Below, piece after piece: positions 1 through 61,486 of a stretch of DNA of 64,000 bases; positions within the stretch are counted from its first letter, which is position 1; each line of letters starts with the position of its first letter. The stretch spans positions 1 to 64,000 of the forward strand of contig DATIJL010000004.1 in the NCBI GenBank assembly GCA_035478595.1. Direction: 5' to 3'. This DNA is from Candidatus Chromulinivoraceae bacterium. GTDB taxonomy: Bacteria; Patescibacteriota; Saccharimonadia; Saccharimonadales; Saccharimonadaceae. The notes beneath the pieces were generated by a model. It saw nothing but the letters and a program-made list of their open reading frames with translations. It ran no database searches and had not been told where the DNA came from. Made by a program: the position numbers and the translations under genes.

Positions 1-77
1 CAGCTCGAAAACCAGGCCAGTCGAATACGAGCCCCATACACTTGGAGTTGTTTTCCGGTCATTGTTCTTGTTCTCAC
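1..77 (-). CDS. 5' end of a gene leaving the window (possible XRE-type HTH protein)
   Basis: An open frame runs from a GTG at 77 off the left edge. An AAAGGAG ribosome-binding site lies 5 nt before the GTG, and a second in-frame ATG sits at 62. Only 25 residues are visible. They contain GKQLQVYGARIRLA, which resembles the first helix of many XRE-family repressors (lysine/glutamine-rich start, then G-x-R-I-R-L-A-R), but the helix-turn-helix itself would lie outside the window. The strong RBS supports a real gene; the family guess is weak. Confidence 0.45.
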   Translation of the reverse strand, partial: MRTRTMTGKQLQVYGARIRLAWFSS

Positions 78-158
78 TTTCACTCCTTTCTAGATTAGAA
101 AGTATATGACGAAGTGTCCAAGATGTATGGGAGCCGGATAACGGTCGACGCGTTCATA

Positions 159-187
159 TTGACAAAAATACACTTTAATTATATAAT
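159..187 (+). promoter_or_regulatory. Consensus promoter of GC-rich cassette 1
   Basis: TTGACA (159-164), a 17-bp AT-rich spacer and TATAAT (182-187) match the sigma-70 consensus exactly. A GGAG Shine-Dalgarno (203-206) follows in the leader, in a GGAGACATA context also found at the start of cassette 2 (39519). The promoter is AT-rich while the gene it drives is strongly GC-rich, a sharp change over about 40 bp. Confidence 0.75.
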
Positions 188-248
188 TATTCTAGTCTCT
201 TTGGAGACATACTGTTGGCAGCCCCCTCGAAGTGAAAGCGAGCCCATC

Positions 249-575
249 ATGCTCCTCTCTGCCTTCCGCCGGTTCCAGAACTTCCAGCGCCGTCACGGCC
301 TCGAGTTCAACGTTGCCGGCGCCGCGACCGGATTGGTCACGGGCACGATCCTTGCCGTCGGATTCCTCACACGCAGCGACGCGACGCCCGCCCCCGCCCC
401 GCACGGCATCGGCTGGTTGACCGGTCCGGTCCTCGCCCTCATACATGACGGCGGGATCTGACACCTGTTGGCCGTCTCATTCCTCGGAGGTGTCGAAGTC
501 GGCGCATTGACACTTTACGTGGCAGTGCAGCTTCGCTACTTCCACACCAACCGCCACCTCGACCGCTGGCGCTGA
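249..575 (+). CDS. GC-rich cassette 1: small multi-TM protein with an in-frame TGA
   Basis: From ATG 249 the frame encodes about 108 codons with an in-frame TGA at 459-461. After it the same frame continues for 37 codons with the same GC-rich codon use and a hydrophobic segment, ending at TGA 573-575. Visible features are an N-terminal basic/aromatic stretch (FRRFQNFQRRH), a first membrane segment (AGAATGLVTGTILAVGFL), a second near GWLTGPVLALI, and a third after the TGA (LLAVSFLGGVEVGALTLYVA), then a basic tail. The TGA is therefore a nonsense mutation, a sequencing error or a recoded codon; elsewhere UGA is a stop. The start is uncertain: the best Shine-Dalgarno (203-206) sits too far upstream of ATG 249. 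No family recognised. Codon use points to transfer from a GC-rich, perhaps actinobacterial, source. Confidence 0.55.
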
Positions 576-588
576 TCCAACAGCACCA

Positions 589-625
589 CCCGATGGGACC
601 CGCAACCGCGCGGAGTCCCATCGGG
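589..625 (+). terminator. Two-tier GC hairpin of cassette 1
   Basis: An 11-bp stem (589-599 with 615-625, CCCGATGGGAC/GTCCCATCGGG) encloses a smaller CCGC/GCGG hairpin. It starts 13 nt after the stop at 575. No T-run follows, unlike the native terminators in this window, so it resembles terminators of high-GC bacteria. The same design ends cassettes 2 and 3. Confidence 0.6.
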
Positions 626-658
626 CAGCTCACTAGGTTCGCATTACCTTATGCTAAT

Positions 659-841
659 CTAGACGGCTGCTACTGCCTTTTTAGATGAATTTATAGCTTG
701 CCTTTTAGCGATTTCGCCGTGATGTTCACTTGATAGGACATCCGACACGTTCATGCCCCTAAGTGCGATAAGACCGACCCGGTGCAGAGTGTTAGCTAAG
801 ACTAACATTTTATGCTTATTAGGCTCTAATTTCGTCAACAT
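659..841 (-). CDS. Small hypothetical protein
   Basis: A 60-codon frame from ATG 841 (GTG 844 also possible), with an AAGG-like ribosome-binding site 4 nt upstream. The product is basic, mostly helical-looking and has no recognised motif. Base composition matches the local AT-richer background, not cassette 1. It lies convergent to cassette 1 and divergent from the Nudix gene at 916. It could be a chance frame. Confidence 0.3.
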   Translation of the reverse strand: MLTKLEPNKHKMLVLANTLHRVGLIALRGMNVSDVLSSEHHGEIAKRQAINSSKKAVAAV

Positions 842-903
842 CACACCTTAAATTGAGGTTATATAACACCCTCCACCAACAAATCCGCTATGTAGGGAAA
901 TGT

Positions 904-909
904 TATAAT
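904..909 (+). promoter_or_regulatory. Leaderless -10 box of the Nudix gene
   Basis: TATAAT ends 6 nt before ATG 916, so transcription should start at or next to the A of the ATG. There is no Shine-Dalgarno. One of a recurrent set in this window. Confidence 0.6.
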
Positions 910-915
910 CGTAAG

Positions 916-1515
916 ATGAATATGGAATCGCCCAAATGGACAATAGATAGCTCCAAATACATCGTTAACGATAGATTTTTAAAACTGCGCGTCGACTCTT
1001 GCACAATACCACAAGGTGGTAAAGTAGGTACCTATTATGTTCTTGAGCTAGATGATTGGGTCAACTGCATCGCTATTGATTCCGATGATAACGTTATCAT
1101 GTTAAGGCACTATAGGCATGGCGTGCAGAAACATCTTATGGAATTCATCGGTGGCGGCATGGAGAAAACAGATGCCTCACCTGAAGCAGCTGCAAAACGT
1201 GAGCTTGAAGAGGAAACGGGCTATACCGGTGGTTCCCTTTACCACGTCGGAACGAGTTATCCTAACCCAGCAAACCACACGAATCAAGTGCATACATTCT
1301 TAGCAGTCGGTGGAAAGATAAGCCAAGATCAAAATCTCGAAGTTGGTGAAACGATTACATTAGAGAAGATCCCCTTCAAGACGGTTATAAAGCAAATGAG
1401 TAAACCTGGTGCAGTATATCCGGCTATCTACCTTGCTGCCTTATTTCATGCTATGAACTTTATCCGAGCTTCAGAGAATCCAGCGTTGGCACATTTGAAG
1501 AAGTACGTTGAATAA
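916..1515 (+). CDS. Nudix hydrolase, ADP-ribose pyrophosphatase-like
   Basis: A 199-residue protein when started at the leaderless ATG 916. The Nudix box spans about residues 80-103, ending AAKRELEEETGY; the catalytic Glu residues of RELEEE are present, although the first Glu of the consensus is Ala (a position that varies). A beta-rich N-terminal half (VGTYYVLELDDWVNCIAI) and the length fit the ADP-ribose/ADP-sugar pyrophosphatase (NudF-like) branch, which cleaves nucleoside diphosphate derivatives to two monophosphates. Substrate cannot be read from the sequence. It stands alone, convergent with the 2H phosphoesterase, another nucleotide-type enzyme. Confidence 0.85.
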   Translation: MNMESPKWTIDSSKYIVNDRFLKLRVDSCTIPQGGKVGTYYVLELDDWVNCIAIDSDDNVIMLRHYRHGVQKHLMEFIGGGMEKTDASPEAAAKRELEEETGYTGGSLYHVGTSYPNPANHTNQVHTFLAVGGKISQDQNLEVGETITLEKIPFKTVIKQMSKPGAVYPAIYLAALFHAMNFIRASENPALAHLKKYVE

Positions 1516-1526
1516 TGTGGCGAGAC

Positions 1527-2180
1527 TTAATTTTTAGATCCTAGATCAAATTCCTCCACTATAGTATGAGGCCTTGAGAAACAAACATCTGCCCTCACGA
1601 TCCCAATCCTATCCACGGTGATTGGAACATCGACTTCAACACTCTTTAACTGTTCGCGCACGTCGCTGACAAGAATTCGTTTTTTATATCTCGCCTGCGT
1701 AGAATGGATGAATCCGGAATCAATAATCCGTCCGCCAAGACGAGGCAAATCCATTAGTTCGTCTCGTATCTTCGAGATCTGTCCTTGATCCTCCCCGCGC
1801 AGGATGATAGCTCCAGACCCAACTTGAAGACGAGTAAGTCTTACCTCGAACGGGTCAAGGCTGCTTGCTATTGCCCTAAGCCTATCTCGATAGAGACCGA
1901 CGTTACTCTCAATGAACTGTATGACGTCATGATCTTCGTAGCCATCGACCACCGAAGTAAGGTTCATAATTGTGATATGTCGTGATCCATAGGGTGAAAG
2001 ATAGAGGACATCTTTCAACCGCTCCTGAATATTTGCGTCCAGAGAGTTAAGTCGATCATTATCCTCTTTCGTGAGTGTGTATGCTATGCCAAAGTATGTA
2101 ATTGGTTCGTTATAATTGTCGAGCGGATTTGTTTCTTGCATAGTAAGTAAAGACCTGAGCTTATAGAGTTTTTCAATCAT
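1527..2180 (-). CDS. 2H phosphoesterase (LigT / 2'-5' RNA ligase-like)
   Basis: 217 residues with two H-x-T/S-x motifs, HITI (in SRHITIMNL, about residue 68) and HSTQ (in GFIHSTQARYKKR, about residue 158). These are the paired catalytic histidines of the 2H superfamily, which hydrolyses 2',3'-cyclic or 2'-5' phosphodiester bonds in RNA or nucleotides. Length is typical. The start is ambiguous: ATG 2180 is preceded almost directly by a TATATA box, whereas ATG 2141 (MQETNPLD) has an AGGT ribosome-binding site and would give a 204-residue product. The substrate is unknown. Confidence 0.75.
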   Translation of the reverse strand: MIEKLYKLRSLLTMQETNPLDNYNEPITYFGIAYTLTKEDNDRLNSLDANIQERLKDVLYLSPYGSRHITIMNLTSVVDGYEDHDVIQFIESNVGLYRDRLRAIASSLDPFEVRLTRLQVGSGAIILRGEDQGQISKIRDELMDLPRLGGRIIDSGFIHSTQARYKKRILVSDVREQLKSVEVDVPITVDRIGIVRADVCFSRPHTIVEEFDLGSKN

Positions 2181-2368
2181 TGTTATATACCAAGTTCATT
2201 GACAAGGCGAGCCCTCGTGCTGTTTAGTTTAAATTAACATATTCCATACCTAATCATACATTACAGACATAATTCCTGTCTTCGTCACCGAAGCTATGAG
2301 TAAAGCAGCTCTCTGTATATTAAAGTTGTATACAACCTTGCGAAAATAGTATATAATTTTATTTTTAC

Positions 2369-3634
2369 ATGCACGAGAAGATTCCCAACACATCACCCGA
2401 CATAGCAGTACATGGAACCGGTTGGCTCGATCAAGTTGACGATCGGTTTCTCGATGAGTTGACAGACAACGAGGAGACCGAGCTCGCCGGTTTACATATC
2501 GAACTTGATGCCATACTGGGCGAACTATTTGCTCCCAGATATTACGTTGATAGCCGCGAAAAGGATATTCAGCTAACATACCTGCGATCTATATTACGGT
2601 TGAAACTTGCACGTATCAGCGAGCTTACCACTGGTTATCCGCAAACCGGTTCGGCTGCATCTGTCATTGCCACCAAAGAGGCAAGCGGACACGATCTCAA
2701 TCCCCACTTTAAACTCGAGCGACGAATCGATTTTTTTAACGCATACGCTGATGAAGTTGCAAGAGGCGAGCAAGCTGCATTCGGAGACAATGCCTTTACG
2801 ACACAACAGCTTAATCACTACACGGCACGAAAACCCGGCAATAACACTTCCGAGAGTCCTATAGTTGTTGGTCATCTACGACGCAATCTCGAGACATATG
2901 AGATTACAGACGAACTTTGTTCCTATATGCTAGTCCTTTGCTCATCTCATCCCGACGGTCCAACCGCATTCGATAGGGACCTGCCAATCGACACAGTCTA
3001 TCTTAATGGAATTTGGGTCAAGCCTGAATACCGCCAAGAACATTTAGGTAGCGAGCTCGGTGACGAACTACTAGCAGATGCGAACAATCGGCCCATATAT
3101 GCTTCTGTCAAGGCAGATAACTTTGGCATGATGCACCTCCTTTCACGCCTTGGCAAAAATTATCGCGACCCTAACTATAAAACAGGGCTTCAGTCTGGAC
3201 GAAGTAGAACGCTCGAGCTACTCTACTGGCATCGTTATTTCGGTGATTCACGGCTCGACAACCGCGTAATGACCGTGTACGACCCTGGCATTTTTATTCC
3301 TGATTCAATCGCGACCGTGCGCCAAGAAGATATCGTTAAACTGCATGAGGTAAAACAAAATCTTGGTCGTGATCGAATTGCAATATATAACGGACCTATA
3401 TATAACTCGGCTGGACTTCCACGAAATTATCGCGTCGATGCCGCAGTTAGCTTGCTACTTGACGACGGAGAATATGTCGGTATTCCCCTTGGTAATTACC
3501 GCTTATACGTTCGTGTCGATTCACTTCCGCTAAGAACTGCCCGCAACATTCGCAGACGTTATGACGAAGTTGACGAACGGCGTGAGCGTGACCATATGAC
3601 TCGTTTTGGCCGGCGAATATTAGCTCTAAACTAA
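2369..3634 (+). CDS. Large protein with a central GNAT acetyltransferase-like domain
   Basis: 421 residues. About residues 205-265 resemble the acetyl-CoA-binding motif A of GNAT enzymes (DTVYLNGIWVKPEYR, then HLGSELGDELL, then a helix and ASVKADNFGMMHLLSRLG). The first 150 residues are charged and helical with no motif I recognise; the C-terminal 130 residues are a separate unassigned region ending in an Arg-rich helix. A TATAAT box (2352-2357) lies 11 nt before the ATG with no Shine-Dalgarno, suggesting a very short or absent leader; a TTGTATACAA palindrome sits just upstream (2326-2335). GNAT activity is inferred, the substrate unknown. Confidence 0.65.
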   Translation: MHEKIPNTSPDIAVHGTGWLDQVDDRFLDELTDNEETELAGLHIELDAILGELFAPRYYVDSREKDIQLTYLRSILRLKLARISELTTGYPQTGSAASVIATKEASGHDLNPHFKLERRIDFFNAYADEVARGEQAAFGDNAFTTQQLNHYTARKPGNNTSESPIVVGHLRRNLETYEITDELCSYMLVLCSSHPDGPTAFDRDLPIDTVYLNGIWVKPEYRQEHLGSELGDELLADANNRPIYASVKADNFGMMHLLSRLGKNYRDPNYKTGLQSGRSRTLELLYWHRYFGDSRLDNRVMTVYDPGIFIPDSIATVRQEDIVKLHEVKQNLGRDRIAIYNGPIYNSAGLPRNYRVDAAVSLLLDDGEYVGIPLGNYRLYVRVDSLPLRTARNIRRRYDEVDERRERDHMTRFGRRILALN

Positions 3635-3687
3635 GGAGTTAACCTAGATTGAATGTTGGAACGGTAAAATACCGCTTCAATATCGTC

Positions 3688-4665
3688 CTATTTCACCAAG
3701 GTTTCTGCCATCCGAAATGCTTCAGATATGATCTTTACCACATCGTGAGTTTCCATGTCAGGATCGTAGAAAATATTATGGTAGTTAGTTGGTGAGATAT
3801 GGAGGGTACGAAGAATTTCCCATACTTTATCCTGCTGAGCTCTCATATAGCTAGGAAGCACTACAAGATGGGTAATTTTCTGATTCTCAGGTTTCAAGAA
3901 GGCTGCTGCATCTAGTGCCTGACATAGCCATCTTCCCTGTTTAGTTCGTAGGGTAATCCGTTGGTAAAGCGGGTTTTCAGCATTGTCATTAACAAAATGT
4001 ATTTCATCATCGTGATAAGCAATGAGACCGTGCGATTCGAGTCGATTCACAAGGTTTTCAGCGTCAATTAATTTAGAGCTTTCTGGAATCAAGAGAAAAT
4101 CTTCGCCGTCAATTGCATCAGCGGATATAACAGATACATCCTGAAACAGAGTGATCAGACTTGCCCGAAAGTCTTTTATGTTTTCTTTCGTAAAATGAGG
4201 TGCTTCCTCATGCCCGTGGGTGTGACCTTTCCGGCTATTATACTCGTCGTATAAAGAAATCAGTCGAGCAGAGGGCAGAAAAGGACGTATTGCACGTGCA
4301 AGACTAAGCCCAACCTTATCTTCAGGGATAAGGTTCGTGATTTTCATCTTCCCATCGAATTGAAGATAGTCTATTAGATACGGACCGAGTGTTTCAAATT
4401 CTATAGGCGCACCTTGATTACGAACAGTGACGAGCGTATCGAGCTGCGCCCGCGAAAAGTCTACTCCGTGGATTTGATATATTTGATCAAGCTTGCTTAG
4501 GCTCTCGGTTAACGCGCGAGACGATCGTTTCGAAAACCCTCCATCCGCTTCTTGAGAATTCAAGATTCTAGCGATGCCACTTACACGCTCACTATGAGAC
4601 CCATGGGCCATAAGCATTTGCAAGTATGCAGGAACTTCCCCTTCGTTATATGTAGGATGAATCAT
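3688..4665 (-). CDS. Hypothetical protein, 325 aa
   Basis: I do not recognise the family. It is a soluble, mixed alpha/beta-looking protein without signal peptide or TM segment. A His-rich stretch (KGHTHGHEE, about residue 150) could bind metal. The C-terminal third (ITHLVVLPSYMRAQQDKVWEILRTL, read in parts) has regular beta/alpha alternation. The start at 4665 has no Shine-Dalgarno but a CATAAT box 9 nt upstream. It stands alone between the GNAT-containing gene and the Clp-like gene. Confidence 0.6.
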   Translation of the reverse strand: MIHPTYNEGEVPAYLQMLMAHGSHSERVSGIARILNSQEADGGFSKRSSRALTESLSKLDQIYQIHGVDFSRAQLDTLVTVRNQGAPIEFETLGPYLIDYLQFDGKMKITNLIPEDKVGLSLARAIRPFLPSARLISLYDEYNSRKGHTHGHEEAPHFTKENIKDFRASLITLFQDVSVISADAIDGEDFLLIPESSKLIDAENLVNRLESHGLIAYHDDEIHFVNDNAENPLYQRITLRTKQGRWLCQALDAAAFLKPENQKITHLVVLPSYMRAQQDKVWEILRTLHISPTNYHNIFYDPDMETHDVVKIISEAFRMAETLVK

Positions 4666-4791
4666 TATATACGTATTATGTCTGTAGTATTTATCTCAAA
4701 ATAGCATTTAAAAACACACCTGTAAAGAAGAACGGATCATATCATAAGTCGAGCTTCCAGCTCAGATCTCAACTCGATTAAAGTGAACAGC

Positions 4792-6507
4792 TCATACATG
4801 CCTCCCCAGCCATGACTCGCTGCCAATGATTGTTATAGGTCCATGCAGTTGCCCGCTTACGATTCGCTCAGCAAGTGGCATCTCAAAGTGTGTTGCTATA
4901 AGACGCCTTACTGGCCTGGCACCAAATAGTGGATCATATTCTTGGTGTAGCAGCTTCGCAAGATATTGGTCTGGCACATCGAACGTAATCCCAAGACGAG
5001 AAAGGCGCACCCCTAATCTAGTGAGTTCTCGTTGCGCGAGAGCAACGAGCTGCAGTTCGCTAAGAGGCTTATATACTAAAATCGCATCGAATCTGTTGAT
5101 AAACTCGGGACGGAATTGGCTGAGCAGCAGCGGCATGAGGGATGTCCGTAAAAAGTTAGTACTGTTTACATCAATCCCATTTACATGAGCGTCCGCAATT
5201 TCTCTACTACCGATATTCGAAGTAGCTAGTAGTAATGTTTGAGTAAAATCAACTGTTTTTCCGCTCGAATCCGTAAGGCGACCATCATCGAGTAATTGCA
5301 AAAAAACATCGAACAACTTGGGGTGAGCCTTCTCGATTTCGTCTAACAACACGAGTGAATACGGCTGACGATCGACAGCACCGGTAAGCTGACCACCCTC
5401 TTCGTAGCCTACATATCCTGGTGGTGAGCCTGTAAGGCGCACTGCACTGTGTGACTCACTATACTCACTCATGTCCAAACGGATCATCGCTTTAGGGTTA
5501 GCATACACTTGTTCGGTAAGTGCCTTGGCCGTTTCTGTTTTACCTACACCAGACGGACCAAGTAGCAAGAATGAGCCACGAGGCCGCGAATCATCACCGA
5601 TGCCAAGCTGTGAGTTGATCATTGTGCGAGCTATAGTTCTCGTAGCCGAATCTTGCCCAATAATGGCGTGGCGGAGCCGTCCCTCAAGGCCCACCAAATA
5701 CGCGGCACCGTTGGCGTCCAAGCTAGCGAGTGGCACTTTCTCACGTTCAGAAATAGCATCACGTACATCGATGAGTTCGACTTGTTGCCGACCTTCAAAA
5801 GCCACCTTCACCGCTACTTCCTCAAACAGCCGAAGCGCCGTATCAGGTAACACTCTCCCGTGTCCATAACGTCTGCTCAAACTGATAGTAAGATCTGTTA
5901 CTTCTGGTGCAATGACCATTGTCTGACCCGAGGCAACATTTTCTAAAATTGCACCAATTGTTTCCGGACTCAGCTCAGCAAGTTCAAGCGGCACAAGTGT
6001 GCGATTAAAAATATAATCTTTATGAAACGTACGCCGAAATGCCGTTTCTGTTGTCGTAACGATAAGTCGAATACCCGAATGAGACGTGATCGCCTGCAGA
6101 AGCTCAAGCGTCTGTTCAAGCCGGCTGGGATCGTCCGTCGCTAACAGCTGTATATCCTCAACAACAATAATTGCCTCCTGAAGTCGCGCCATTTGAACAC
6201 GAAGTGCATCAAAACACGCACGTAAACTGTCCCCCGCAACAAATAGACTCAAGATAGGAGCCGTATCAAGCACATATACCTTAGCGGGTAACTGCGGGAT
6301 AGCGCCTTCAAACACTCCCAGAGTTAGCATTTCGATCAGAGTACTCTTTCCAACTCCAGGTTCACCGATAATAACCGCATGGTGATGAGTAGGACGCAGT
6401 AAGATTTGCACCAAGCGGCGAAGTTCATCGTCTCGACCAATTACCTCTGTGAACGAATCTGTTTTGGTTGTAAGATTACGAAGACGAATGGAAAGCGGCG
6501 TACTCAT
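4792..6507 (-). CDS. Compact Clp/Hsp100-type AAA+ ATPase (ClpA/ClpC-like)
   Basis: 571 residues with two AAA+ modules. D1: Walker A GEPGVGKS (about 48-55) and Walker B-like IIVVEDIQLL (about 113-122). D2: Walker A GPSGVGKT (317-324), pore loop GYVG (364-367), Walker B LVLLDE (385-390) and sensor-1 TSN. It lacks the N-terminal Clp repeat domain and the ClpB M-domain insertion, so it is much shorter than ClpA, ClpB or ClpC (about 750-860). Family knowledge: such ATPases thread substrates through a hexamer pore for unfolding or disassembly. It overlaps the upstream acidic gene by ATGA (6504-6507), implying translational coupling and probably a joint function. Missing N and M domains suggest an unusual adaptor or substrate, plausibly the coupled neighbour. 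Confidence 0.85.
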   Translation of the reverse strand: MSTPLSIRLRNLTTKTDSFTEVIGRDDELRRLVQILLRPTHHHAVIIGEPGVGKSTLIEMLTLGVFEGAIPQLPAKVYVLDTAPILSLFVAGDSLRACFDALRVQMARLQEAIIVVEDIQLLATDDPSRLEQTLELLQAITSHSGIRLIVTTTETAFRRTFHKDYIFNRTLVPLELAELSPETIGAILENVASGQTMVIAPEVTDLTISLSRRYGHGRVLPDTALRLFEEVAVKVAFEGRQQVELIDVRDAISEREKVPLASLDANGAAYLVGLEGRLRHAIIGQDSATRTIARTMINSQLGIGDDSRPRGSFLLLGPSGVGKTETAKALTEQVYANPKAMIRLDMSEYSESHSAVRLTGSPPGYVGYEEGGQLTGAVDRQPYSLVLLDEIEKAHPKLFDVFLQLLDDGRLTDSSGKTVDFTQTLLLATSNIGSREIADAHVNGIDVNSTNFLRTSLMPLLLSQFRPEFINRFDAILVYKPLSELQLVALAQRELTRLGVRLSRLGITFDVPDQYLAKLLHQEYDPLFGARPVRRLIATHFEMPLAERIVSGQLHGPITIIGSESWLGRHV

Positions 6508-42025: not shown

Positions 42026-42520
42026 TTATAGGTTCTCCTGTCGGATTTTTTTCATAGCAAGCAGCATGAGCTTGCCTATATCTTCGTATTCTATCACGTC
42101 AAGTGCATCGTGAAACTTAAACCACTTGATGCCATTCATCCAATCTTCTTTCTGAATAGCGTTTGTGTCACCTTTAGCGCGTACGAGATATATCTGGGTA
42201 GTCATCAGAACAAGGCGATCAACACGTCGGTAGCGAAAATGGATTTTTCCGAGCCACCCGAGTACTTCCGTATCATGCAGTCCAGCCTCTTCGCCGATTT
42301 CGCGTTTTGCTGTCTGCTGAGCCGTCTCACCTTCTTCTATATGGCCCTTCGGTATCGTCCAGCGGTCTTTTGTATCCTGAATAAGAAGTATTTCAACTTC
42401 CTTATCCTGATTACGACGGAAGACTATGCCGCCGGCGGTCGGTTCACGGACAATCTCTTGGATTGAGCCACCCGATCGTTTGAAGTATTTTTTGAATCGT
42501 TCAAACTGTGGATTCTGCAT
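42026..42520 (-). CDS. Nudix hydrolase, Ap4A/MutT-like
   Basis: 164 residues from ATG 42520, inside the end of nusB (20-nt overlap). Nudix box [25 protein letters not shown] is complete, with the catalytic Glu pair. The N-terminal AGGIVFRR and WTIPKGH are typical of dinucleoside polyphosphate or MutT-like enzymes. Lies between nusB and rnc, a place suggesting an RNA or nucleotide clean-up role; substrate not readable. Confidence 0.85.
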
Positions 42521-42962
42521 TATCTGACGTCCCTTCAACAAGTGTACGGTATGCCGTTCCGAGCACGCCGTTTACAAACTTGCTTGAGTTATCAGAACCA
42601 AACGCTTTGGCAAGCTCTACCGCCTCATTGATAGCAACTTTGGGTGGCACAACTGTAGAGAGTTTCAAGAGCTCATAAAGACCTATGCGAAGAATCGCAC
42701 GGTCAACTCGAGCAATTTGCTCGATCGGCCAGTCAGGAGCAATCGGCTGGATTTTTTCATCCAATTCTGGTTGACTCGCAATAACGCCTTTTACGAGGTC
42801 TGTGACGAACCCTTTATCCTCAATGGCCGTATCGTATCGCTCCAAATTACGCCCGAGGATTTCATCAATATTTGCCGTACTATCGCCCGATCCCGTACGA
42901 AATTCATATTCATAAAGGCTCTGTAGTACAACGATGCGTCCAAGGTGGCGATTTGATGCCAT
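42501..42962 (-). CDS. nusB: Transcription antitermination factor NusB
   Basis: 153 residues, all-helical, with [13 protein letters not shown], then [22 protein letters not shown] and [30 protein letters not shown], which are NusB signatures. It works with NusE (S10) on boxA in rRNA transcription. Ends in TGA, showing UGA is a stop here. Native length. Confidence 0.95.
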
Positions 42963-43337: not shown

Positions 43338-46256
43338 TTAGCGCACCACAATATTTACAAGGCGTCCAGGAACGTAAATAATCTTAACGATTTCTTTTTG
43401 CTCGATGTACTTTCGAACATTCTCTTCGTTCTGCGCCAGGTCTTTGGCATCAGTTTCTGAAATATCTTTTGGAGTAACTAACTTGGCTCGAACTTTGCCA
43501 TTTACTTGCACGACGATCGTTACCTCGTCCTGCACAAGATATGCGTTATCCCATTTTGGCCATGTGTCGACATGGATGGTCTCAGTGTGACCTATTTGAT
43601 ACCAGAGCTCCTCAGTTATATGAGGGGCAAACGGTGCTAACACTTCGAGGAGACTCTCGACTGCGAACGTCCACTCTGGTGACCTGACAATACAGTCTGC
43701 GTCTTTTAGCTTATAGTACGCATTAACCGCTTCCATCATACTTGAGACAGCTGTATTAAACTTCTCGTTCTCTATGTCTTCCGTTACTTTTTTGACCGTC
43801 TTGTGCGCGATCGTAAGTATTTCGTTCTTCTGTGCCGGGTTCGTTTCGCCAGCTTCGGCTTCAGCATATTCCTGCGTAAGATTCCATACCCTACTCAAAA
43901 ACCTATAGGTGCCAGGCACGCCACGAACATCCCATGGGGCTTCAATGTCATAGGGAGCAATGAACATTTCGTAAACACGAAGTGAATCCGCGCCATAACC
44001 ACTATCCATAATCTCGAGCGGATCAATCACGTTACCCTTTGATTTACTCATCTTCAGGCCATCCGGCGCCATAATATAACCGTTATACATCATGCGTTTA
44101 AACGGTTCAGGATCGGCAACCAGGCCTTGCTTATAGAAGAAACGTGTCCAGAAGCGGGCATAAAGGAGGTGCGCAATGGCATGGTCGGCACCATTATAAA
44201 AGTCAACCGGACCCCAGTAAGATTCGATCTTAGGATCCCAAGCCTGTGTATCATTAAACGGATCCATATAGCGTAGGAAATACCAACTGCTACAAGCATA
44301 ACCATCCATTGTGTCAGTTTCGCGTTTCGCTGGACCGCCACAGGTTGGGCAGGTTGTATTCACCCAATCCGTCACACCTGCAAGAACAGATGTTGCTCCG
44401 CCCGTTGGTTTATAGTTTTCAACTTCTGGCAAGATAACCGGTAGTTGGTCATCGGGTACGGCAACCGCACCATCTTTTTCACAGTGGATAATAGGGATAG
44501 GCGCACCCCAATAGCGTTGACGACTGATAAGCCAATCGCGCATTTTATATGTAATAGTACTCTTGCCAACACCCCGCTGTTCAAGCCAGGCCACGATCTC
44601 TTCACGCGCCTGTTCGGTGCGCATACCATCAAATGCACCAGAATTAATCAGAATACCTTCACTGGTATAGAGCGGTGCCCGGTAGTCCTCACCCTTTTCA
44701 TAGGCTTTTGCCGCCTGAATGGCGCGCTCGATACCTTCTTGCCAGTGGTCGGCACCACCATCAGGGTTCGTACTAGCCTTGAGCGCTTCACCCTCACTCC
44801 AATACACCTCGTAATCCTCATGTGATTCAAGAGCTTGCTCGCCTTGCATAGTAGAGTCGATGATAGCTAAAAAGTTATAACCTTTCGAACGACGATTGCT
44901 TTGCTTGTTACTATTGTAATAATACGAATAGACAGGCGCACCGAGTGGGATCATGGCCTCGACATCGACAAAACCAGCCTCTTCGCGTAGCTCGCGGTAG
45001 GCAGTCTGCTCAAACGTCTCACCTTCTTCGTGACCACCAGCAACGAGCCAGCCACGACCATTACGCTTGTTTTTAAGTGCCATGAACTGCTTTGTTTTAG
45101 GATCATAGCCAATAACAACCACACCCTCGATTTCTTTAGGGTCGGGCAATTCTTCGCCGAAATCTTGTGCAATTACGTTACGAATAGGAATGTTAAATTT
45201 CTCTGCAAATGCAAAGTCGCGATCATCATGTGCTGGAACTGCCATAATCGCACCGGTTCCATAGCCCGCCAAAACATAGTCAGCCAGCCAAATAGGAATC
45301 TTCTCACCGTTTACCGGGTTAATGGCGTAGCTGCCAGTAAAGACTCCTGTTTTTTCGCGTGTGTCATTCATACGCTCAATCTCAGACTTGCGTACTGCCT
45401 CGTCACGGTATGCCGTCACCATATCAGCAGTCTCACTTGTAGCCAGCTTAGAAGCTAGCTTGTGTTCCGGAGCTACGACCAATACCGTCGCACCAAACAA
45501 TGTATCAGGACGAGTAGTAAAGATAGTAATGACATCATCACGACCATCAATTTTAAACTCAACCTCGGCGCCTTGTGATTTACCGATCCAGTTTTTCTGC
45601 ATCACCTTAACTGATTCTGTCCAATCCAGGTCATCTGTTGCCGCTAAGATCTCATCAGCGTACTCAGTAATTTTGAAAAACCACTGTTTCAGATTCTTTT
45701 TAACGACTGGGTTACCACAGCGCCAGCATTTGCCACCTTCTACTTGCTCATTTGCGAGTACCGTCTGGTCGGTTTCACACCACCACTGCGGGCTCTCCTT
45801 CTGGTAGGCTAGATCCTTCTTGTAAAGCTGATTAAAAATCCACTGTGTCCATTTGTAATACGAAGGGTCGGCCGTGCTAATTTCTTTAGACCAATCGTAG
45901 CTATAGCCAAGCCGTTTCAATTGACGCTTAAAGTTCACCTTAGCGTCATCGTGAGCTTCACGTGGTTTTTTGCCAACTTTAATGGCATAGTTTTCAACTG
46001 GTAATCCAAAGGAGTCCCAACCAATGGGGTGGTAGGCATTATAGCCTTGCTGACGCTTGGCACGAACCTTAATATCACTAAACTGGTAGGTTCGACCGTG
46101 GCCGATGTGGATACCGGCACCCGTAATGCCTGGTAGCATACTAAAACCGAAGTATTTAGGACGTGAGTGATCTAGGAGGTCAACTTTGTATGTACCATCC
46201 TTTTCCCACTTTTCTTGCCATTTTTGTTCGATTTCAGTAGGGTTGTAGCGTTTCAT
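43338..46256 (-). CDS. leuS: Leucyl-tRNA synthetase with an internal Nudix domain
   Basis: 972 residues, about 110 longer than usual. HIGH motif at 50-53, zinc knuckle CWRCGNP near 177-183, editing CP1 domain with TTRPDTLFGA (about 247-256) and AHDDRDFAFA (about 342-351), KMSKS in GLKMSKSKGNV, and C-terminal anticodon-binding parts are all present. Between the first part of CP1 (ending DPKEIEG, about 377) and its resumption (EGILINSGAFDGM, about 533) lies a full Nudix domain, about 378-522. Its box (407-429) reads from GGHEEGE to RELREEAGF with catalytic residues intact. Leaderless start: TATACT 46264-46269, 7 nt before the ATG. The synthetase charges tRNA-Leu; the Nudix role is unknown, perhaps hydrolysis of a nucleotide by-product. 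Confidence 0.96.
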   Translation of the reverse strand: MKRYNPTEIEQKWQEKWEKDGTYKVDLLDHSRPKYFGFSMLPGITGAGIHIGHGRTYQFSDIKVRAKRQQGYNAYHPIGWDSFGLPVENYAIKVGKKPREAHDDAKVNFKRQLKRLGYSYDWSKEISTADPSYYKWTQWIFNQLYKKDLAYQKESPQWWCETDQTVLANEQVEGGKCWRCGNPVVKKNLKQWFFKITEYADEILAATDDLDWTESVKVMQKNWIGKSQGAEVEFKIDGRDDVITIFTTRPDTLFGATVLVVAPEHKLASKLATSETADMVTAYRDEAVRKSEIERMNDTREKTGVFTGSYAINPVNGEKIPIWLADYVLAGYGTGAIMAVPAHDDRDFAFAEKFNIPIRNVIAQDFGEELPDPKEIEGVVVIGYDPKTKQFMALKNKRNGRGWLVAGGHEEGETFEQTAYRELREEAGFVDVEAMIPLGAPVYSYYYNSNKQSNRRSKGYNFLAIIDSTMQGEQALESHEDYEVYWSEGEALKASTNPDGGADHWQEGIERAIQAAKAYEKGEDYRAPLYTSEGILINSGAFDGMRTEQAREEIVAWLEQRGVGKSTITYKMRDWLISRQRYWGAPIPIIHCEKDGAVAVPDDQLPVILPEVENYKPTGGATSVLAGVTDWVNTTCPTCGGPAKRETDTMDGYACSSWYFLRYMDPFNDTQAWDPKIESYWGPVDFYNGADHAIAHLLYARFWTRFFYKQGLVADPEPFKRMMYNGYIMAPDGLKMSKSKGNVIDPLEIMDSGYGADSLRVYEMFIAPYDIEAPWDVRGVPGTYRFLSRVWNLTQEYAEAEAGETNPAQKNEILTIAHKTVKKVTEDIENEKFNTAVSSMMEAVNAYYKLKDADCIVRSPEWTFAVESLLEVLAPFAPHITEELWYQIGHTETIHVDTWPKWDNAYLVQDEVTIVVQVNGKVRAKLVTPKDISETDAKDLAQNEENVRKYIEQKEIVKIIYVPGRLVNIVVR
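44691..45125 (-). other. Nudix domain insertion within leuS
   Basis: DNA encoding leuS residues about 378-522. It starts VVVIGYDPKTKQFMALKNK, with the Nudix box at 407-429, a YSYYYNSNKQSNRRSKG loop, and ends with an Ala/Glu-rich helix that may act as a linker. Base composition is like the rest of leuS, with no sign of recent insertion. The boundaries are set by where the canonical synthetase sequence stops and resumes. Confidence 0.85.
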
Positions 46257-60787: not shown

Positions 60788-61486
60788 GTGCATAGAGCTC
60801 AGATAGCCGTCCTCTACAAGCTTCGCCATAGTCAATCAGCCAGTTTCAGCGAGCTGATGCATGAGACAGATCTCGAAAGTGATGTCTTTAAATTTCATAT
60901 TCAGAAGCTCGTAAAACTTGCTTATATACACAAACTTACAAACGGTGAATACGAGTTGACTCCATATGGCAAGGAGTTTGCCAACAACCTGGATGAAGAA
61001 AAGCAAACTGCACAGAAACAACCAAAACTTTCAATGCTGCTTATAGTACCTCGCCCGGATCATCTAGACGTGCCGGAGTATCTTATGCAAAAAAGAATGC
61101 GACACCCTTATTACGGTTTCTGGGGTTGCATAAGCGGACCAGTGCAATGGGGAGAGGACGTTGAAGAGACCGCAGCTCGCGAGCTTGAAAAACAGACTGG
61201 ACTCCGTGCTTCGTTCGAGGTGAGATCATTCTATCGTATGCGCGATTATAATGAAGAAACAGACTCCTTACTCGAAGATAAATTATTTATGGTTCTCAGA
61301 GCATACAACGTAAAAGGTCTTTTGAATGAATCTCTATGGCCACACGGCATAAACAGATGGATGACACAGGATAAGCTCAAAGAACAGCGACACTATTTTA
61401 CTGCTTCAGATCAAGCAATTAATATGATTAATCAAGATAAGACATACAACTCTCAGAGAAAGGAGTACAAGGTTACAAACTATTGA
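60788..61486 (+). CDS. Winged-helix protein with degenerate Nudix domain (possible regulator)
   Basis: 232 residues from GTG 60788. Residues 1-70 form a winged helix (LYKLRHSQSASFSELMHETD, later GEYELTPYGKEFANNL). Residues about 80-225 are a Nudix fold with box GPVQWGEDVEETAARELEKQTGL, in which the catalytic Glu pair of REL-x-EE is Lys135-Gln136. Nudix domains without that pair usually bind rather than hydrolyse, as in NrtR-type repressors, though there the wing helix is C-terminal. Divergent from the nucleotidyltransferase gene. Best read as a nucleotide-sensing regulator of that gene. Confidence 0.82.
   Translation: MHRAQIAVLYKLRHSQSASFSELMHETDLESDVFKFHIQKLVKLAYIHKLTNGEYELTPYGKEFANNLDEEKQTAQKQPKLSMLLIVPRPDHLDVPEYLMQKRMRHPYYGFWGCISGPVQWGEDVEETAARELEKQTGLRASFEVRSFYRMRDYNEETDSLLEDKLFMVLRAYNVKGLLNESLWPHGINRWMTQDKLKEQRHYFTASDQAINMINQDKTYNSQRKEYKVTNY

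Follow-up and report, generated by a model that had tools for sequence, protein, structure and literature searches.

A Nudix domain in the CP1 editing domain of a Saccharimonadia leucyl-tRNA synthetase, one probable occupant of a slot for exchangeable enzyme modules

The window analyzed here is a 64,000-nucleotide stretch of contig DATIJL010000004.1 (assembly GCA_035478595.1, Candidatus Chromulinivoraceae bacterium), from an ultra-small member of the class Saccharimonadia of the Candidate Phyla Radiation (CPR). Its leuS gene (43338..46256, minus strand, as are all features of the synthetase given below) encodes a bacterial-type leucyl-tRNA synthetase (LeuRS) of 972 amino acids with a Nudix domain inserted in the CP1 editing domain. 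The assignment is based on the translated open reading frame (ORF), which scores 969.4 bits on the NCBIfam model leuS_bact (TIGR00396; cut-off 548.4). The HIGH and KMSKS signatures of the synthetic site (residues 50–53, 46098..46109, and residues 735–739, 44040..44054) and the threonine-rich editing motif FTTRPDT (residues 246–252, 45501..45521) were located in the sequence and fall in columns conserved among relatives. The N-terminal part of CP1 (residues 221–368, 45153..45596; Pfam PF13603, E = 7.7e-66) includes the near-invariant HDxRD motif of the editing site (residues 343–347, 45216..45230), immediately ahead of the insert, and the C-terminal part of CP1 follows beyond it (residues 530–566, 44559..44669), as placed by an AlphaFold2 model and by alignment with Thermus thermophilus LeuRS. 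The synthetic and editing motifs thus appear intact, as had been stated in the initial annotation of this DNA, which was made from the sequence alone. This was the only LeuRS match in the 1.14 Mb genome and, on that basis, is presumably its working copy.

The alignment with T. thermophilus LeuRS stops at residue 375 (T. thermophilus 374) and restarts at residue 530 (T. thermophilus 377), so that a short surface loop is replaced by an insert that adds ≈155 residues. Including linkers, the insert spans residues ≈371–526 (44679..45146) in the alignment and the AlphaFold2 model. The initial annotation had located the Nudix domain correctly at residues 378–522, bounds that are slightly too narrow for the insert as a whole. 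Pfam places the editing domain at residues 221–368, NUDIX (PF00293) at residues 378–487 (44796..45125; E = 1.9e-10, 41.3 bits against a cut-off of 21.1) and the remainder of the synthetase after it. The Nudix box at residues 407–429 (44970..45038), exactly where it had been reported, reads G407-GHEEG-E413-TFEQTAY-R421-E422-L-R-E425-E426-A-G-F429, in agreement with the pattern G-x5-E-x7-REUxEExGU, with E422, E425 and E426 as the catalytic residues. It is followed by the X-loop region (residues 443–456, 44889..44930), in which Tyr occurs 14, 16, 17 and 18 positions after the box, and by a K..NR motif specific to the LeuRS-inserted Nudix domains.

The AlphaFold2 model of the whole LeuRS had a mean pLDDT of 90.6, with every block within the insert at ≥84, and the insert modeled by itself reached a pLDDT of 95.4 and a pTM of 0.89. 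Foldseek matched the latter model to RppH, ADP-ribose pyrophosphatase and Ap4A (diadenosine tetraphosphate) hydrolase structures with E-values down to 1.9e-9, the best being RppH; the TM-scores against the Ap4A hydrolase of Aquifex were 0.68/0.78. The closest sequence match was 2azw, an uncharacterized MutT/nudix protein; neither by sequence nor by fold, therefore, were the closest relatives ApnA (dinucleoside polyphosphate) hydrolases. When the whole-protein model was used as the query, the best 50 matches were all LeuRS structures, none of them described as having a Nudix domain. Pfam, AlphaFold2 and Foldseek thus agree with the original proposal of a complete Nudix domain, with an intact box, inside CP1, and the insert is predicted to fold as such a domain.

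We surveyed 152 genomes of the class with the C-terminal half of LeuRS as the query, and 150 of them gave a LeuRS match, one each. Insert counts were based on the length of the open frames and are lower bounds. Open frames of at least 890 amino acids were found in 41 of the 150 genomes, and all of these except G099 contained a domain-sized insert. Together with a broken gene in G175, this gives 41/150 genomes with a domain-sized insert (40 complete) and 109/150 in which no insert was detected. A LeuRS of 867 residues on a short contig (G276) contained a serine hydrolase insert as well. In the rest of the phylum, domain-sized inserts were present in 30 of 130 matched genomes. Many independent genomes, some of them assembled as a single contig, have the same layout, which rules out an assembly artefact, one of two outcomes that the initial annotation had named as refuting its proposal. 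A second, resistance-type LeuRS next to a normal copy could be rejected for most genomes, because each gave a single match. Among ≈55 non-CPR LeuRS, mostly from Clostridia, no recognizable enzyme insert was found; the sole long insert, of 67 residues (L109), was at a different position. Three loci in records titled Aenigmatarchaeota or Nanoarchaeota (L041, L044 and L045) extend the distribution to DPANN archaea; their site B inserts (see below) are an unknown domain, an α/β hydrolase and a Nudix domain. The LeuRS of these loci closely resembles that of CPR (for L041, 1005 bits on leuS_bact and 306 on leuS_arch), and either CPR–DPANN transfer or misbinning is possible.

The inserts occupy four recurrent sites, denoted A (core residues ≈235–241, before the threonine-rich motif), B (after HDxRD), C (≈437–446) and D (≈513–523). 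The insert of the window is at site B, where Nudix is the commonest occupant, while its site A loop (residues 236–241, 45534..45551) is empty; in relatives, this loop holds a serine hydrolase, ASCH, Nudix, HAD or HAM1 domain. By Pfam, Nudix, HAD and Ser_hydrolase (RBBP9-like α/β hydrolase) domains were found at sites A and B, with a weaker α/β-hydrolase match at C, ASCH at A, HAM1/ITPase at A and C, and a nucleotidyltransferase fold at B and D. The serine hydrolase inserts retain, by inspection, the GxSxG motif and a C-terminal His. The longest LeuRS found in this analysis, with 1795 residues (L188; G191:C23:4600-10100, ORF 77-5461 +), has inserts at all four sites, comprising HAD, two HAM1-like, Nudix and nucleotidyltransferase domains. 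Related-looking inserts with the sequence SYLMGAxxISDxDL... occur at site A in L150 and at site B in L178 and L184. The only one of the three that was scanned, that of L178, had no Pfam match, and they may represent an uncharacterized inserted domain.

Isoleucyl- and valyl-tRNA synthetases (IleRS and ValRS) were compared by open-frame length and broken profile matches. Inserts were found in the IleRS of 6/147 genomes of the class (loci L199–L204, in G160, G118, G133, G162, G094 and G096), in every case interrupting the region ahead of the IleRS threonine-rich motif, at the start of CP1. The occupants are Nudix, low-molecular-weight (LMW) phosphatase, YunG, a weak transglutaminase-like match, or unknown domains, and the congeners G094 and G096 carry different domains at the same site. 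The L199 protein has an N-terminal GNAT match in addition. No clear case of an insert was found in ValRS in 145 genomes. Just beyond the window there is a truncated ValRS-like ORF of 625 residues (L207; G000:C4:75060-76937, G000 being the genome of the window), which starts after the N-terminal part of ValRS; the full valS of this genome is on contig C1.

Across 65 site B Nudix inserts with a median pairwise identity of only 26%, the Gly of the box is present in 65/65, the three catalytic Glu residues in 65/65, 65/65 and 63/65, and the Arg in 59/65. In a close pair (L022/L131), dN/dS was 0.006 for the Nudix domain and 0.03–0.05 for the flanking synthetase core. In the group to which the window belongs, dS was saturated, and the Nudix dN of 0.08–0.13 was about that of the core (0.10–0.19). 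The catalytic residues therefore appear to be kept by selection, and the conservation of the catalytic Glu residues together with the dN/dS of ≈0.006 makes it almost certain that the Nudix domain is an active enzyme: very probably a hydrolase and, we infer, a pyrophosphohydrolase. The same data rule out a decayed, non-functional insert as a general explanation. The one decaying or broken copy is that of G175 (L154; G175:C4:343900-347400), where LeuRS is encoded by two overlapping ORFs with a deletion and a change of frame within the Nudix insert; the insert may be decaying, LeuRS may be split, or the assembly may be wrong at this point.

A profile built from the LeuRS-inserted Nudix domains scored 50–205 bits on other LeuRS inserts and 20–53 bits on free-standing Nudix genes. 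The exceptions were two free-standing genes, L238 (104 bits) and L243 (64 bits), and the site A insert of L185, with only 31 bits. (L238, at G182:C18:6900-8000, ORF 236-802 +, encodes a free-standing Nudix protein of 189 residues in a genome that also has a Nudix-containing LeuRS.) On the Nudix tree, LeuRS inserts and free-standing genes are separated by five state changes. A search of the 152 genomes with the Nudix domain of the window retrieved mainly ORFs of LeuRS length, its nearest relatives among them; several of the weaker, free-standing matches were near leuS. The ASCH and serine hydrolase inserts likewise had their best matches in LeuRS. The LeuRS-inserted Nudix domains thus appear to constitute a subfamily of their own, distinguished by the K..NR motif.

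The initial annotation had overlooked what we consider the main point, that Nudix appears to be only one of the domains that use this slot: among relatives the slot loses its occupant, gains a new one or exchanges it, and it can also house unrelated enzymes. Such behavior is not what one would expect of a fixed housekeeping partner of editing. Over 2080 pairs, identity in the synthetase core is hardly correlated with identity in the Nudix domain (r = 0.14). L128 and L013 are 88% identical in the core and 22% in Nudix, while L011 and L012 are 60% identical in the core and 77% in Nudix. Approximately unbiased (AU) tests rejected the grouping of core sisters on the Nudix tree for L009/L010/L039/L011 (p = 3e-49) and for L013/L132/L128 (p = 2e-4), groups that were chosen after the identities had been inspected. 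Mapped on the core tree, the presence of Nudix at site B requires 34 changes, of which supported branches force at least 25; with shuffled labels, the number is 43.7. The site A Nudix domains of L027 and L151 nest among those of site B; the module has therefore apparently moved between sites, too. In an archaeal pair with 90% DNA identity, L041 (insert) and L115 (no insert), the native loop was replaced with no target duplication. Taken together, these comparisons indicate that LeuRS genes have acquired, lost and exchanged the Nudix domain at a much higher rate than that of synthetase evolution, and the domain is in all likelihood an exchangeable module.

As to the source and carrier of the module, spread by phage or plasmid was considered and rejected: there was no phage match and no viral contig, and the single plasmid match was weak (29.5% identity). 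The window also contains a free-standing Nudix gene downstream of leuS (42026..42541, minus strand), in a gene order shared with relatives, with nusB-like and rnc-like neighbors; the nusB-like ORF (42501-42962) lies between it and leuS. The idea that the insert is a copy of this gene was not supported, since the gene belongs to a separate clade in the tree. Several other Saccharimonadia have Nudix genes of one clade near leuS. Two further Nudix matches are located at 1060-1371 and 61079-61384 of the window, and the 1.14 Mb genome has 25 in all, 24 besides the LeuRS insert.

Site B lies just after the HDxRD motif and site A just before the threonine-rich strand. Because these two sites flank the editing motifs, the probable location of the modules is around the editing pocket. 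In archaeal and eukaryotic LeuRS, the insertion I4ae is the only CP1 insertion that adjoins the editing pocket (PMC7229842). Site B would fall in the CP1 region of I4ae, as judged from the bacterial mapping to T. thermophilus residues 374–377 and a human correspondence based on sequence reading and on that study. In CPR bacteria and in some DPANN archaea, the CP1 loop very probably acts as a slot in which small enzymes are exchanged. We propose that the Nudix domain would protect or clean the synthetase on the spot by hydrolyzing a small molecule that contains an adenylate and is bound by the synthetase or released from it. Candidate substrates are an adenylate-mimic inhibitor made by competitors and the dinucleoside polyphosphates made by the synthetase itself, and different modules might be favored in different settings. 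On-site protection or cleaning is favored because of the fast turnover, the several unrelated hydrolases found per site, and the distribution of inserts, which are far more frequent in LeuRS than in IleRS and absent from ValRS in our sample. A role that is tied to the synthetase is fairly probable. The explanation as a whole, an exchangeable, active and on-site protective or cleaning module, is a plausible one that we hold just short of probable. Of its two variants, removal of an inhibitor is a tentative choice that we place slightly ahead of removal of ApnA, which is rather unlikely. A more far-reaching version, which we consider doubtful, is that the interchangeable enzymes (Nudix, serine hydrolase, ASCH, HAD, ITPase and nucleotidyltransferase) in the LeuRS of CPR and some DPANN, and more rarely in IleRS, occupy a dedicated slot for cassettes within the editing domain and are on-target antidotes swapped between lineages; each enzyme would destroy or modify one class of inhibitors aimed at the synthetase or of toxic adenylates.

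Several points weigh against the proposal of on-site protection. We found neither an inhibitor nor a producer or resistance context; the substrate class is a guess, and the activity is predicted; the AU-test groups were selected post hoc; and the fast turnover could also come about through a loop that tolerates insertion and conserved flanks that recombine, the enzymes having a generic function. Moreover, the X-loop Tyr that hints at ApnA is also present in free-standing Nudix genes. This residue bears on an alternative in which the Nudix domain does a housekeeping job, removing the diadenosine polyphosphates that LeuRS makes from leucyl-AMP and ATP and thereby keeping an alarmone low. Production of Ap4A is a known side reaction of synthetases, and the structural match to the Aquifex enzyme points the same way. 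In ApnA hydrolases, the specificity Tyr of the X-loop is located ≈17 residues after the Nudix box (PMC5389931), and the 65 inserts have Tyr or Phe at +17 in 88% and at +18 in 80% of cases, with Lys at +22 in 62/65; the free-standing genes have 89% at +17. An adenine-containing pyrophosphate substrate is thus suggested, and the Ap4A-type hydrolysis raised in the initial annotation gains this one weak line of sequence support, set against closest relatives that are not ApnA hydrolases. Housekeeping predicts stable inheritance, however, and with most class genomes (109/150) lacking a detected insert and congeners swapping theirs, a constitutive job fits badly. It also leaves the serine hydrolase, ASCH and nucleotidyltransferase domains in the same sites unexplained, in a genome that already has 24 other Nudix matches, and we consider it unlikely.

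Alternatively, the peripheral loops of CP1 might simply accept insertions, with recombination between the conserved leuS flanks exchanging inserts that carry out generic nucleotide house-cleaning unrelated to LeuRS. The occupants are indeed common small-enzyme families, Nudix matches are numerous in this genome (25), and the recent insertion in the L041/L115 pair replaced the native loop cleanly. On the other hand, the Nudix, ASCH and serine hydrolase inserts form LeuRS-specific subfamilies, unlike the products of repeated random capture, and ValRS, with a homologous CP1, is spared in all 145 genomes. The ≈55 non-CPR LeuRS also lack recognizable enzyme inserts, their one long insert, of 67 residues, lying elsewhere. 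A passive landing pad therefore fits badly, and we consider it as unlikely as the housekeeping job. Least probable of all is a regulatory or structural domain, in which Nudix would bind nucleotide or tRNA and gate editing or aminoacylation, with hydrolysis incidental. Non-enzymatic Nudix sensors do exist. The position of site B, if it corresponds to the region of I4ae next to the editing pocket, would suit such a role (PMC7229842; mapping by sequence reading). Yet nearly all inserts keep the three catalytic Glu residues, which many sensor Nudix domains do not; the same site accommodates very different folds, and close relatives have no insert at all.

Few proteins are as conserved as the aminoacyl-tRNA synthetases, and where these have extra domains, the domains usually characterize a whole lineage and often lack catalytic activity. 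In about one in four of the CPR genomes sampled, the proofreading domain of an essential, single-copy synthetase houses fast-swapping enzymes that appear catalytically intact. If the modules act on ligands of the synthetase, this would represent a new coupling of accessory chemistry, possibly the removal of inhibitors, to a translation enzyme, and it would open the biology of CPR and DPANN organisms, which is poorly known, to direct tests. If the antidote reading were true, the synthetase would be a polymorphic, self-protecting drug target. If the modules do not act on such ligands, it would still be an unusual essential gene that carries exchangeable enzyme cassettes.

The initial annotation knew of no characterized LeuRS with this layout, and none came to light in the open-access literature searched (most subscription journals and preprints are outside it), which likewise held no report of Nudix or another enzyme within LeuRS CP1, of CPR LeuRS insertions, or of their swapping. 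CP1 insertions, appended synthetase domains and an IleRS with GNAT (NF040702) are already known. I4ae of archaeal and eukaryotic cytosolic LeuRS, including human LRS, is a lineage-specific CP1 insertion that lies C-terminal of the editing Asp and near the editing pocket (PMC7229842), a position that the site B inserts may share. Unlike the inserts described here, I4ae is a small part of CP1 without an active site of its own, and it is a mark of entire lineages, whereas the inserts are exchanged even among close relatives. The NCBIfam family NF040702 (ileS_w_GNAT) is a curated example, from the LeuRS/IleRS/ValRS group of class I synthetases, of a synthetase with an extra enzyme domain, but it is an IleRS with a different domain and a separate family, for which the protein of the window, with 79 bits, is far below the cut-off (1999). 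Free-standing Nudix hydrolases, such as RppH, Ap4A hydrolase and ADP-ribose pyrophosphatase, share the fold and the intact Nudix box, whereas the domains described here are embedded in LeuRS and form their own subfamily with the K..NR motif. The repeated insertion of extra domains that is reported for another essential information-processing enzyme appears alike in kind, with a different host enzyme. There is a substantial chance that the behavior of the LeuRS CP1 loop as a cassette slot is itself new.

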